DNA from: Clostridia bacterium
GTDB taxonomy: Bacteria > Bacillota > Clostridia > Christensenellales > Aristaeellaceae
Length of the DNA stretch: 49,258 nucleotides
Assembly: GCA_017433405.1 (NCBI GenBank)
Contig: JAFRHH010000081.1
Coordinates: forward strand, 1-49,258
Direction: 5' to 3'
Under the pieces are notes generated by a model, which was not told the DNA's origin, searched no databases, and saw nothing but the letters and a program-made list of their open reading frames with translations. Made by a program: the position numbers and the translations under genes. Shown here in pieces: positions 2,039-6,872 of this stretch (its first letter is position 1; each line of letters starts with the position of its first letter).

Positions 2039-2317
2039 TCATCCGCGGCGGGCGGCAAAGCACTCGCTGCAGTACACGGGACGATCCTCCTTCGGCTCGA
2101 AAGGAACCTGGGTAGGCTTCCCGCATTCCGCGCAGATGGCGTCAAACATCTGGCGCGGAGCGCCGGATGCGCGGCTGGCTTTCCGGGCCTGACGGCAGGC
2201 CTTGCACCGGGTGGGCTCGTTCTGGAATCCCTTTTCCGCATAGAACTCCTGTTCTCCGGCGGTAAAAACGAACTCCGCTCCGCAGTCCTTGCAAACCAGC
2301 GTTTTGTCTTCGTACAT
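2039..2317 (-). CDS. Double zinc-ribbon protein
   Basis: A 92-residue protein made of two zinc ribbons. The first has CKDC (C9, C12) and, after an AEKGFQNEPTRC segment, CKAC; the second has CAEC and YCSEC near the C-terminus, typical of the small Firmicute 'probable zinc-ribbon' proteins. No enzymatic motif is present; it is presumably a cytosolic nucleic-acid or protein-binding factor of unknown role. I start it at ATG 2317, where the zinc-ribbon homology begins and a GGGGG stretch lies about 10 nt upstream. The reading frame stays open to 2386 but that part is rich in unlikely residues and overlaps the structured RNA. The gene lies about 40 nt after the ncRNA candidate on the same strand, so it may be expressed from the same promoter. 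Confidence 0.82.
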   Translation of the reverse strand: MYEDKTLVCKDCGAEFVFTAGEQEFYAEKGFQNEPTRCKACRQARKASRASGAPRQMFDAICAECGKPTQVPFEPKEDRPVYCSECFAARRG

Positions 2318-2358
2318 GATCCGGTAACCCCCATACAGTTTAAAATAGGTGATTTCCC

Positions 2359-2570
2359 CCGGCTGACCTGGTCTTTGACCCCACACTCGCCGCCTGGAAG
2401 GTTGCTCCGCGCTTCCGCGCCCTCACGCGCTCCTCTCGGGGACGACGCCCCCGGACGGACTTACATCTAGACCGCACCATGCTCCCCGCCGCTTTTCAGC
2501 GGATTACGTGGACCGTTTTGCCTGCGACTGGCCTCGGCTTGCAACCACAGACCCGAAGGAATTCAACCGG
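2359..2570 (-). ncRNA. Structured noncoding RNA candidate, about 212 nt
   Basis: A consensus promoter (2575-2603) should start transcription at about 2568-2570. The first bases of that transcript, CCGGUUGA (2570-2563), pair perfectly with UCAGCCGG (2366-2359), closing a domain of about 212 nt. Inside are GGUCU (2553-2549) with AGACC (2374-2370), CCGCU-GAAA-AGCGG, GGGG-CGUCGU-CCCC and GCGC-GGAA-GCGC hairpins. No convincing ORF covers it. It does not match what I know of tmRNA, RNase P, SRP RNA, 6S RNA or the T-box. Size and clostridial context would suit the raiA-motif class, but I cannot confirm this. It could be independent or a leader of the zinc-ribbon gene. Confidence 0.6.
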
Positions 2571-2772: not shown

Positions 2773-3477
2773 TTACCGACCCTGGCCGTAGTAGGCGTTG
2801 GGGCCGTGCTTGCGCATGAAGTGCTTTTCCTTCACGTGGTCCGGGAGGCAGGCCACCGGCTGGGCCTGGGGCAGGGTTTCCGTATGCCAGGCCATCATGG
2901 CGACCTCCTCGAGCACCACGGCGTTATGAACCGCCTCCATGGCGTCCCTGCCCCAGGCGAAGGGGCCGTGATGCCGGGCCAGGACGCAGGGAACGTGATT
3001 CGGGTTCAGGCCGCGGCTTTCAAAATGATCCGCGATGACCTTTCCGGTTTCCAGCTCGTAGGCCCGCTCCACCTCCTCCCGGGTCAGATCCCGGCAGCAG
3101 GGCACATTGCCATAGATGTAATCCGCGTGGGTGGTTCCGTAGGCCGGGATATCACGGCCGGCCTGGGCCCAGATCGTCGCCCAGCGGGAATGGGTATGCA
3201 CGACGCCGCCGATCTCCCCGAAGCGGCGGTACAGCTCCGCGTGGGTCGGGGTGTCCGAGGAGGGATTCAGGCGGCCCTCCACCTTCTTTCCCTCCAGGTC
3301 GATGACCACCATATCCTCCGGCTTCAGCTCCTCATAGGGGACGCCGCTGGGCTTGATGACGAAAAGGCCCTTCTCCCGGTCGATTCCGGAAACATTCCCC
3401 CAGGTAAAGGTCACCAGATGGTAGGCGGGCAGCAGCATATTGGCCTCATAGACTTTCTGTTTCAGGGCTTCCAGCAT
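2773..3477 (-). CDS. araD: L-ribulose-5-phosphate 4-epimerase
   Basis: A 234-residue class II aldolase-family epimerase that converts L-ribulose-5-phosphate to D-xylulose-5-phosphate, the last step of L-arabinose catabolism. It has the family landmarks: TWGNVSG (phosphate binding), [17 protein letters not shown] with D75, and zinc ligands H94 and H96 in HTHS plus a His in RHHGPF (H169/H170). Length matches E. coli AraD. The ATG has AAAGGAG at 3487-3493, which overlaps the clpC stop (3493-3495), so it is the third gene of the ctsR operon. araA and araB are absent from the window. A paralog such as UlaF or SgbE is possible, but arabinofuranosidase and an AraR-type regulator elsewhere in the window favour AraD. 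Confidence 0.9.
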
Positions 3478-3492: not shown

Positions 3493-6249
3493 TCACGATC
3501 CTGTCTTCGTTGGCTGTGGTTCTTCACTGGCGCGGGGTTCCCCGCCGGCCGGGTTCTCCCTGTTGTTCCGGGGCTCTTTTGTTACCGCAATCCGGTTCTC
3601 CCGTACCGTCAGGCGGACCGTTCCTCCCAGGGTCAGACGGCCCGTCAGGAGCTCCTCGCTGAGGGTGTCCTCCACCGTCCGCTGGATCAGCCGCCGCAGG
3701 GGCCGGGCGCCGAATTTCGGATCGTATCCGTCCTCCGCCAGCTTCTTCACCACCGCCTCATCCCAGGAAAGGGTGATTTCCTGCTCCTTCAGCCGCTCCG
3801 CCACCAGGGAGAGCATCAGCGCCGTAATCCGTTCGATTTCCTCCGCCGTCAGCGCGTGGAAAACGATCAGCTCATCCACCCGGTTCAGGAATTCCGGCCG
3901 GAAGAGCTCCTTCACTTCCTTCATGACGGAGTCCTTCATTTCCCCGTAGCTTCGGGCGCTGTCCTTCCGATCCGCCCCGAAGCCGAGGGCGCGGCCGTTT
4001 CCGATGGCATGGGCCCCGGCGTTGGAGGTCATAACCACAACGGTGTTCTTAAAGCTGACCACCCGGCCGGTATTGTCCGTCAGCCTGCCGTCCTCCAGGA
4101 TCTGCAGCAGGATATTGAAGACATCCGGATGCGCCTTTTCCACCTCGTCGAGCAGCACGACGCTGTAGGGCTTCCGGCGGACCGCCTCCGTCAGCTGACC
4201 GCCTTCCTCGTAGCCTACGTAGCCCGGCGGGGAGCCGACGAGGCGGGAGACCGTATGCTTCTCCATATACTCGCTCATATCCAGACGGATGACCGCCTCC
4301 TCATCCCCGAACATGGCCTCGCCCAGGGCCCGGCAGAGCTCCGTCTTTCCGACGCCCGTGGGGCCGAGGAAGATAAAGCTGCCGATCGGCCGCCGGGGAT
4401 CCTTGAGCCCCGCCCGGGCCCGGCGGATCGCCCGGGCCACCGCGCTGACCGCCTCCTCCTGGCCCACCAGCCGCCGGTGCAGCGTTTCCTCCAGGTGGAC
4501 CAGCCGGTCCGCCTCCCTCTCCGTCATCCGGTTGACGGGAATCCCCGTCCACTGGGAGACGACCTGGGCGATGTCCTCCTCGGTCACCGTATCCCGGGCC
4601 GCGGTCTGGGACCGGTTCCACTCCGCCCGCTTCTCCTCGATCTCCCGGTTCAGGTTCCGCTCCTGGTCCCGCAGGGCCGCCGCCTTTTCAAAATCCTGGT
4701 GGGCGACGGCTTCCTTCTTTTCGATCACGACGGCCTCGAGCCGCTTTTCCTGCTCCCGTACATCCAGCGGCGCGGTACAGGCCTGAATCCGGACGCGGCT
4801 GGCCGCCTCGTCCATCAGGTCGATGGCCTTATCCGGCAGAAAGCGGTCCGGAATATACCGGTCCGACAGCTTGACCGCCGCCGACAGCGCCTCGTCCGTA
4901 ATCCGCACCTTATGGTGGGCCTCATAGCGATCCCGGAGACCGAAGAGGATCGACAGGGTTTCCTCCGCCGTGGGCTCCTCCACCGTCACCGGCTGGAACC
5001 GGCGCTCGAGGGCCGCGTCCTTTTCGATATGCTTCCGGTATTCATCCAGGGTCGTGGCTCCGATGCACTGGATTTCCCCCCGGCTCAGGGCCGGTTTGAT
5101 CATATTGGCCGCGTCCAGGCTTCCCTCGCTGGCGCCGGCCCCGATGATCGTATGGATCTCATCGATAAAGAGCAGCACGTTTCCCGCCCGGCGCAGCTCC
5201 TCCATGACGTTCTTCAGCCGCTCCTCGAACTCGCCCCGGTATTTGGTTCCGGCCACCATGCTGCCCAGATCCAGGCTCAGCACCCGTTTTCCCAGCAGCA
5301 TTTCCGGCACGTTTCCCTGAACAATGCGCTGGGCCAGCCCCTCCGCCACGGCGCTCTTGCCGACCCCCGGCTCCCCGATCAGCACCGGGTTGTTCTTCGT
5401 CCGCCGGATCAGGATCTGAATAATCCGCTGAATTTCCGCGTCCCGCCCGATCACCGGATCCAGGGCGTTCTTGGCCGCCGCGGCCGTCAGATCCCGGCTG
5501 AACTGGTCCAGGGCCGATTTTTCGCCGCCCCGGCGCCCGCCGGCGGCCCCGAAGGGGAAGCCCTGGGGACGGCGGGCCGGATCCGCGCCCTCGCTGTCCC
5601 GCATTTGGCTGAGCAGCTGCTCCCGGGCGGCGGACAGATCCACCCCCGCCTTGCGCAGAAGGCTTCCGGCCACCCCGTCGTCATTCCCCAGCAGCGCCAG
5701 CCAGATATGCTCCGCCGTCACGTAGTTCTGGCCCAGCTTATGGCTTTCGACCACGCTGTTTTCCAGGGTCTTCTTCGCCCGGGGGCTCAGCTCCATCCTT
5801 CCGCCCTGCTCCCCGGGGTTTTCCGGCGCGCCTTCCCCAATGGTCTTCAGGTGCTCCTTCAGCTCCGCGGTCACGCTGTCATAGCTCATCCGCTCCGAAA
5901 CCGCCCGGGGCACAGAGGTTCCCGTCTTCATCAGGGCCAGGAGCATATGCTCCGTTCCCACATAGGTCTGGCCCAGCTCGCCGGCGATCCGGGACGCCAG
6001 CTGCAGAATCTGCTGAGAGCGCTGGGTCAGCCGCCCGAACATCGGCATCGAGAATTCCTTCCGGCTGCCGCTGCCCGCCTGGATCGCGCTGAGCACGGTA
6101 TTTAAAAGGCTCCGCACGCTGCCCCGCATCAGATCCGAATTCATCCGGCTCATACAGTCCGCGCAGAGATGGCGCACGGAGGTCTCCTCCCCCGTGACGA
6201 CCGATACGGTATAATTGGCTTCATTGACACGGCATTCCTCGCACAGCAA
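3493..6249 (-). CDS. clpC: ClpC AAA+ unfoldase with fused McsA-like N-terminal zinc finger
   Basis: A 918-residue Hsp100 unfoldase that feeds substrates to ClpP. Residues 1-35 are not ClpC: CEEC (C3, C6) and CADC (C29, C32) reproduce the N-terminal zinc finger of McsA. Then come the two Clp_N repeats (about 70-215), AAA1 (GEPGVGKS 293-300, FIDEIH), a UVR segment (about 510-545), AAA2 (GPTGVGKT 629-636, LLDEVEKAH), an LGF ClpP-contact loop near 755-757, and the D2 small domain. The start is TTG at 6249 with GGGAGG 8 nt upstream. A second start, ATG at 6048 (M68) with AAGGA at 6060-6056, would give conventional ClpC. ctsR is directly upstream; no separate mcsA or mcsB is present. Confidence 0.95.
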
Positions 6250-6338
6250 GCGCGCCGCCTCCCTTCCGTTTCACAAACTTATCAGGCTGTGCGGTTGAGC
6301 CGCCCAGCTGCGGTGTTTTCGCCCGCACATCCCGAGAC

Positions 6339-6809
6339 TTAGCCCCTGTTCCGGGCCGCGATGCTCATCAGCATGCTCTTCATCATCCGGGCCCGGAGGG
6401 CGTTCTTCAGCGCATCCGGGATCGGCACCGCCATCGCCCGGGTGCTCAGGGCCGAGGACATCAGGGACGCCTCCTGCGGCGTCACCAGCTGCTGATCCTT
6501 CAGCTGGCTGATCAGCCGGAGGGCCTCCTCCTCGCTCAGCTCCTCGCCAATCCGCTCGTTCACCAGGTACATCAGGCGCTGGGAGCCGGATTCCACCACC
6601 CGGACGATCCGGATATACCCGCCTCCGCCGCGGCGGCTCTCCGTCAGATACCCGTGATCCGGCGAAAAGCGGGTCGCCAGCACGTAATTGATCTGGCTCG
6701 GCGCGCAGCCGAAATATTCCGCGAGCTCATTTCTTTTCAGCTCCACCTCCGCCGACTCATCCGTCAGCAGGGTTTTGATAAAGCTCTCTATACTGTCGCT
6801 CAGTCTCAT
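6339..6809 (-). CDS. ctsR: CtsR, heat-shock transcriptional repressor
   Basis: A 156-residue class III stress repressor that binds heptad operators upstream of clp genes. It shows the winged-helix N-terminus (SDSIESFIKTLL, ELAEYFGCAPSQINYVL), the glycine wing RGGGGYIRIVRV that senses temperature and touches DNA, and a C-terminal helical domain (EEALRLISQLKDQQLVT, followed by a basic end). Start ATG 6809 with an AGGGGAGG-type SD at 6818-6825. It is the first gene of ctsR-clpC-araD, and its own promoter carries a CtsR operator. In Bacillus CtsR is inactivated via McsB and McsA; mcsB is not here, so control must rely on temperature sensing or on a kinase encoded elsewhere. The 89-nt gap to clpC shows no gene. 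Confidence 0.96.
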   Translation of the reverse strand: MRLSDSIESFIKTLLTDESAEVELKRNELAEYFGCAPSQINYVLATRFSPDHGYLTESRRGGGGYIRIVRVVESGSQRLMYLVNERIGEELSEEEALRLISQLKDQQLVTPQEASLMSSALSTRAMAVPIPDALKNALRARMMKSMLMSIAARNRG

Positions 6810-6855: not shown

Positions 6856-6872
6856 ATTGACTTTCTTTGACC
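6856..6872 (-). promoter_or_regulatory. CtsR operator
   Basis: On the minus strand GGTCAAA-GAA-AGTCAAT reproduces the known CtsR heptad direct repeat (RGTCAAA-NAN-RGTCAAA), with the second heptad deviating at its end. It lies just downstream of the ctsR -10 box, over the expected start site, so bound CtsR would block its own promoter. Confidence 0.9.

Follow-up and report, generated by a model that had tools for sequence, protein, structure and literature searches.

ClpC of Bacillus subtilis and Staphylococcus aureus carries no zinc finger and depends on the adaptors MecA or McsA/McsB (PMC13125188). McsA, a separate adaptor and the working partner of McsB, has a UVR motif and two zinc fingers. 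The second finger contacts McsB and activates it (PMC12467219, PMC7235348). The N-domains of McsA, ClpE (its NTD) and ClpG (its N1 domain) are regarded as homologous zinc domains; N1 of ClpG binds both zinc and aggregates, a property speculatively extended to the McsA domain in the same paper (PMC10641755). ClpE, with cysteines at positions 3, 6, 29 and 32, binds zinc and, unlike ClpC, needs no adaptor; its NTD differs from that of ClpC and takes part in targeting casein and aggregates (PMC13125188). According to the same source, the zinc subdomain of ClpE (residues 1-46) is not essential for aggregate processing (a 2.6-fold effect), the adjacent segment 47-81 matters more, and the NTD is not needed for CtsR degradation by ClpE (PMC13125188). 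Where a species lacks McsA/McsB, ClpE has also been linked to the control of CtsR. ClpG/ClpK is an autonomous disaggregase.

The window, the whole 49,258-nt stretch of DNA analysed here (contig JAFRHH010000081.1 of a Clostridia bacterium), exhibits an ORF in which a zinc finger precedes ClpC (Table 1). Its N-terminus reads MLCEEC...LCADC. Pfam identifies Clp_N (PF02861, present as two stretches), both AAA modules, the AAA lid, a UVR-like M-domain and the C-terminal domain, and residues 70-890 form one aligned stretch with the solved B. subtilis ClpC. A sequence-only reading of this DNA had described a C3/C6/C29/C32 finger followed by a complete ClpC, and the sequence, the Pfam matches and the ClpC alignment agree with it. 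The four cysteines and an RHLC stretch are invariant when 27 fused sequences are aligned with five of McsA; the 32 rows comprise 26 of the 31 fused named loci, the window and the five McsA. Among the open-licence PMC papers searched, the fusion is undescribed.

Table 1. Features of the fused clpC locus in the window
Feature	Position	Strand	Basis
Fused ORF, McsA-type zinc finger and complete ClpC, 918 aa, TTG start	3493..6249	-	sequence, Pfam, alignment
McsA-derived part, residues 1-60 (first zinc finger and next helix)	6070..6249	-	hhalign against McsA profile
Zinc-finger ligands C3-x2-C6-x22-C29-x2-C32	6154..6243	-	sequence; invariant in 32-row alignment
Shine-Dalgarno-like GGGAGG of the finger-bearing start (TTG 6249)	6258..6263	-	sequence
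Internal Shine-Dalgarno AAGGA, 7 nt before ATG 6048	6056..6060	-	30 of 33 genomes; synonymous conservation
Internal start codon, Met68, equivalent to stand-alone ClpC start	6046..6048	-	sequence, comparison
ClpC part: Clp_N, AAA1, M-domain, AAA2, C-terminal domain	3493..6048	-	Pfam, alignment
UVR-like stretch of M-domain, residues 501-534	4648..4749	-	PF02151 over cut-off
LGF in the position of the VGF-type ClpP-binding loop	3979..3987	-	aligned to VGF of B. subtilis ClpC
ctsR, first gene of operon	6339..6809	-	PF05848, PF17727
Putative CtsR operator GGTCAAAGAAAGTCAAT upstream of ctsR	6856..6872	-	exact consensus match

By membership the fused protein is a ClpC with an added domain. It resembles ClpE in its four-cysteine zinc finger on an Hsp100 with an M-domain and, by prediction, ClpP as partner. 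It is not a ClpE because Clp_N is present, whereas the ClpE layout has the finger followed by an AAA ring without Clp_N; to our knowledge ClpE has no Clp_N double repeat. ClpE is, moreover, typically monocistronic, whereas the fused clpC sits in the ctsR operon. With ClpG/ClpK it shares the layout of zinc N1, Clp_N, AAA1, M-domain and AAA2, and position 91 of the ClpG profile meets Clp_N residue 76 of the fused ORF. It is not a ClpG, because its scores of 824.5 and 860.2 bits against NF033607 and NF033606 (ClpG/ClpK) are far under the 1900-bit cut-offs and because its zinc ligands are different. We know of no ClpG with a VGF/LGF-type loop, while the fused ORF carries LGF in AAA2, by sequence a predicted ClpP-binding loop. 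PMC13125188 names VGF as the ClpP motif.

The finger is best matched to McsA. A profile-profile comparison (hhalign) with McsA gives a probability of 99.4% over 59 columns, and the identity to a sister-lineage McsA is 54% over 59 residues, continuing past the finger into the helix that precedes the second finger of McsA. The McsA sequences of four sister loci (L116, L119, L120, L121) share 53-56% identity with the window across the finger and the following helix. In all 33 fused ORFs the match to the McsA profile stops at position 60-69, before the second finger, and the second zinc finger and the free-standing form of McsA are absent from the fused ORF, which scores 24.1 bits as a whole, and 19.7 bits for residues 1-66, against the 210-bit cut-off of the McsA family NF053706. 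Across the genus, the only matches to the finger part of this profile are the fused ORFs of 33 genomes. It is highly implausible that the finger was instead acquired separately, from an N1 domain of ClpE or ClpG type. The cysteine numbering is that of ClpE (PMC13125188) and the N1-N2-AAA layout is that of ClpG; however, the identity to sister McsA extends beyond the finger, the fused gene lies right after ctsR where sister loci have mcsA, and a PDB search with the finger lists McsA only, weakly (E-value = 0.067). The ligand places of ClpG/ClpK are, in addition, C/C/C/H (PMC10641755 and the ClpK N-terminus), against the four cysteines of the fused finger. A Pfam domain, PF24734 (DUF7685), matches the fused finger with 24.8 and 25.2 bits and McsA first fingers with 26.3 and 18.7 bits, all below the 27-bit cut-off, and may be a member of the group formed by the N1 domains of McsA, ClpE and ClpG.

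The gene order points in the same direction. A scan of named contigs yields the whole architecture in 31 of 49 loci. In all 31, ctsR is located upstream (at 9-359 nt) and no mcsB match is found in the locus DNA scanned, while the other 18 loci all exhibit separate mcsA and mcsB genes. The kinase and serine-hydrolase genes neighbouring the fused gene are also found in five of these 18 unfused loci (L115, L116, L119, L120, L121). The nearest sister lineages keep the order ctsR-mcsA-mcsB-clpC. A midpoint-rooted tree of the ClpC core, built from the 41 of 54 loci with a ClpC long enough, groups the 27 fused proteins together (support 99/97) beside L115, L116 and L121, in which the quartet is intact. 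G375, from a different genus of the family, has ctsR, mcsA, mcsB and clpC as well, but its McsB shares only 25% identity with the query and its ClpC forms the longest branch in the tree. Given sister lineages with the intact quartet, a single deletion-fusion is the simplest history: in an ancestor of the genus, the stretch from mid-mcsA through mcsB would have been lost, joining the first finger of McsA in frame to ClpC. McsA is homologous to the fused ORF over residues 1-60 and occupies the same operon position after ctsR, while the later parts of McsA, including the second finger to which the literature assigns McsB contact, are gone together with McsB. The proposal that the finger is a former adaptor domain of McsA is upheld by the McsA profile, the locus order and the sister identity. 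Comparison of these sequences supports such a history, together with selective upkeep of the finger and of the internal ribosome-binding site discussed below.

The fusion is not confined to one assembly. McsA-type finger and Clp_N in one chain, which the sequence-only reading had suggested looking for, recur across the genus: in a sample of 61 genomes (the own genome, 36 of the same genus and 24 from other families of the order), a finger plus Clp_N query matches over its full length in 33 of the 37 genus genomes and in none of the 24 others, with 52-79% identity in genus genomes other than the own. The fusion is in frame in all 33 genus genomes with the N-terminus present. Of the four genus genomes without it, one (G024) has its ClpC cut by a contig end, and no ClpC was found in three (G005, G009, G034). 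An assembly artefact is ruled out by the 33 separate assemblies, two of which are single-contig (G022, G035). In surveys of 391 genomes of the class and of 398 genomes of the phylum (the latter at E-value 1e-20 and 90% completeness), only the own genome, among the matches listed, matches the finger plus Clp_N profile from position 1; rarer or more diverged fusions may exist elsewhere. G286 and G119, which stood out by a longer frame or a match beginning earlier, prove to carry a plain clpC with an ORF upstream that is McsB-like by eye. Separately, in G009, a 91% complete genome of the genus, neither ClpC nor ClpB was found.

The partners of ClpC were looked for in the genus and not found. A McsB protein query finds no McsB in the 37 genus genomes, ten of them at least 90% complete, and finds it in 14 of the 24 genomes of other families. 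With a closer query, none of 23 genus genomes gives a match at an E-value below 0.1, a single match (E-value = 0.3) being at chance level. Two McsB protein queries find no mcsB in the operon of the window or elsewhere in its assembly, which is 89% complete. These results confirm the reported lack of mcsB in the operon. Protein queries were used because searches with the McsB families PF00217 and NF002194 are uninformative, giving no match in any of 14 controls, including B. subtilis, which we take to have McsB; a whole-genome first-pass search with these two families seems to miss the McsB family. Near-full-length McsA is likewise found in none of the 37 genus genomes by the McsA profile and in 11 of the 24 others. 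Other matches to this profile in the genus have E-values of 1.9e-5 or worse and cover only the C-terminal UVR part, in ClpC or other long frames. A separate mcsA/mcsB pair elsewhere, named beforehand as the result that would contradict the sequence-only reading, was thus searched across the 37 genus genomes and not found. MecA is found in none of the 61 genomes (B. subtilis and L. lactis controls being positive); as the other families lack it too, its absence probably predates the fusion. Neither known ClpC adaptor, MecA or McsA/McsB, is therefore found in the genus. The Hsp100 proteins of 23 genus genomes are the fused ClpC, a ClpB-like protein and a single-module protein of about 640 aa, with no further ClpC/ClpE-like protein seen among them.

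One way to read these absences is that tagged proteins still reach ClpC through an arginine kinase unrelated to McsB or through an adaptor that has escaped recognition. The Clp_N repeats do keep Glu100 and Glu180 in all ten rows of an alignment, the counterparts of which are presumably the phospho-arginine ligands in B. subtilis. However, the EH motif holding these residues is also present in the N-domains of other Hsp100 proteins, so that their conservation is not diagnostic, and protein queries find no McsB-like protein in the genus genomes. We regard such a kinase or adaptor as quite improbable. The loss of McsB is not unique to the genus. Two loci of other families lack the arginine-kinase system as well: in one (L145; G042:C4:128500-135500) ctsR is directly followed by a finger-free clpC without mcsA/mcsB, and in the other (L146; G043:C3:53000-60500) a finger-free clpC has no ctsR, mcsA or mcsB beside it. 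These are further losses of that system, and indicate that ClpC can live without McsB and without the finger, which counts against the functional reading preferred below.

Median pairwise dN/dS in 20 sequences is 0.08 for residues 2-36, 0.19 for residues 37-58 and 0.26 for Clp_N, values that are rough because dS is near or over 1; pairs with dS of 0, undefined or at least 3 were omitted, which removed 55 of the 190 pairs for the finger, 32 for the helix and 1 for Clp_N. Judged from these substitution patterns, the finger is under purifying selection. This evidence bears on the view that the finger is a passive relic and that the working product starts at Met68. The internal Shine-Dalgarno element is more constant than the upstream one, and the species of the window, alone of 33, starts the long form with TTG, as such a relic might lead one to expect. 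But the finger evolves under a lower dN/dS than Clp_N, its four cysteines are invariant and the reading frame has been kept in every genus genome with the N-terminus present, and we consider a relic unlikely.

The second start noted in the sequence-only reading (ATG 6048, with AAGGA at 6060-6056) is located as described and is conserved at synonymous sites. In 30 of 33 genomes AAGGA lies 7 nt upstream of the internal ATG; it is missing in L014 and L040, and the match in L039 is weaker and more distant. Codons 63-67 (RKEFS) exhibit the top codon conservation beyond codon usage (0.345) among 504 windows along the gene, scanned in 26 sequences (the 30 long ones minus L039, L040, L003 and L004). 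The next-highest value is 0.317 at codons 297-301, and codons 297-304 nearly match codons 63-67. Codons 63-67 are also at the top of the 155 windows of an N-terminal alignment, from which near-identical sequences were removed (33 to 31) and L039 and L040 set aside, 29 being used. Arg63 alone among 47 conserved arginine columns is mostly AGA (23 of 25), a codon making up 72 of the 1567 arginine codons. Met68 is the only one of 13 conserved methionine columns with a 5-base Shine-Dalgarno match in 96% of sequences, the annotated start reaching 60% and the next best methionine column 43%; such counts are not independent, the sequences being related. Downstream of the ATG, codons 69, 70 and 73 vary at synonymous sites, and codons 71, 74 and 75 are strongly conserved. 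These three, and codons 297-304, indicate that other codon constraints exist in the gene. Comparative evidence of this kind suggests that ClpC is produced in two forms, one with the finger and one lacking it, and the TTG start in the species of the window may tilt the output to the short form.

Two sister loci (L121 and L119) share AGAAAGGA at the same spacing, agreeing with the genus consensus at 12 and 11 of its 18 bases. The idea that the internal ribosome-binding site is a relic of the stand-alone clpC is only suggestive, because L115, L116, L118 and L120 do not share AGAAAGGA at their clpC start. Products of two lengths are known from other Hsp100 proteins. In L. plantarum, ClpE exists in two forms, the small one lacking the finger peptide and including a fragment from residue 66 (PMC3472708). 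That form is ascribed to ClpP-dependent processing, whereas the short form of the fused ClpC would use an internal start. Two start sites giving an Hsp100 with and without its substrate-binding N-domain are described for E. coli ClpB95/ClpB80, although protein and domain are others and the two lengths are established there, here coming from comparison alone (PMC6941012).

From the homology of N1 and NTD and the literature on ClpE and ClpG, we take the finger as a substrate-binding domain acting in cis in place of McsA/McsB. As a predicted N1-type zinc domain like those of ClpE and ClpG, it would hold misfolded or aggregated proteins and feed them to the ClpC ring to which it is attached, replacing both McsA/McsB delivery and arginine phosphorylation, so that ClpC would need no arginine kinase. 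Initiation at the internal site would provide finger-free ClpC, which would either mix with the fingered form in hexamers or make up a second pool. Control of CtsR would come from the heat sensing of CtsR itself and from degradation through the fused ClpC with ClpP, without phospho-arginine. Taken as a whole (deletion-fusion of the McsA finger, in-cis substrate finger, finger-free form and phospho-arginine-free CtsR control), this is our best explanation, to which we assign a probability of roughly 0.55. The functional bypass of McsB, raised in the sequence-only reading, is what we infer from it.

A stronger version, which we put forward tentatively, makes the fused protein a self-sufficient, phospho-arginine-free ClpC. 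Here the finger would act as an adaptor built into the chain, bringing in substrate and also activating the ring. The ratio of the two starts would set the number of fingers per hexamer, and one gene and one mRNA would provide both adaptor-loaded and adaptor-free ClpC. In either version an activator may still be required, because the M-domain phenylalanine that holds ClpC in its resting state is Phe or Tyr at the corresponding position of the fused ClpC.

The four invariant cysteines would also suit a finger that serves chiefly as a thiol/zinc stress sensor. Oxidation would unfold it and relieve CtsR repression through changed ClpC activity or self-clipping, a mechanism put forward for ClpE of species that lack McsA/McsB. 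Redox sensing is a function of McsA, and ClpE has been suggested in that role where McsA/McsB are missing (PMC5506225); zinc loss makes ClpE clip off residues 1-35, and a truncated ClpE has also been reported from oxidatively stressed cells (PMC13125188). On the other hand, the McsA finger reported to be oxidised is the second (PMC7235348), the one lost here, and the hosts are presumed anaerobes, an animal gut site, mostly of ruminants, being named in 13 of the 31 fused-locus titles. A role chiefly as sensor appears somewhat doubtful.

The locus is a natural separation-of-function experiment, the first finger of McsA and ClpC being kept and the second finger and McsB dropped. This pattern points to a kinase-independent role of the first finger, a role that has so far been a matter of speculation in the parts of the literature consulted. 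It would also add, by a traceable event, a further Hsp100 with an N1-type zinc domain to ClpE and ClpG. Thanks to the conserved internal start, the idea of mixed rings of fingered and finger-free subunits can be tested directly.

The operator upstream of ctsR matches exactly the CtsR consensus taken from PMC3472708. A shuffle control, made for sites with up to one mismatch only, gives two found against 0.79 expected, which is weak on its own. On the other side of clpC, a class II aldolase gene (2773-3477) directly follows in the window. Three other loci exhibit an additional gene between clpC and the aldolase (L045, 1651-2214; L039, 4993-5574; L040, 5052-5633), presumably thymidine-kinase-like from its N-terminus. 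The window also contains a small ORF with CxxC motifs (2039-2386, minus strand), zinc-ribbon-like by eye.
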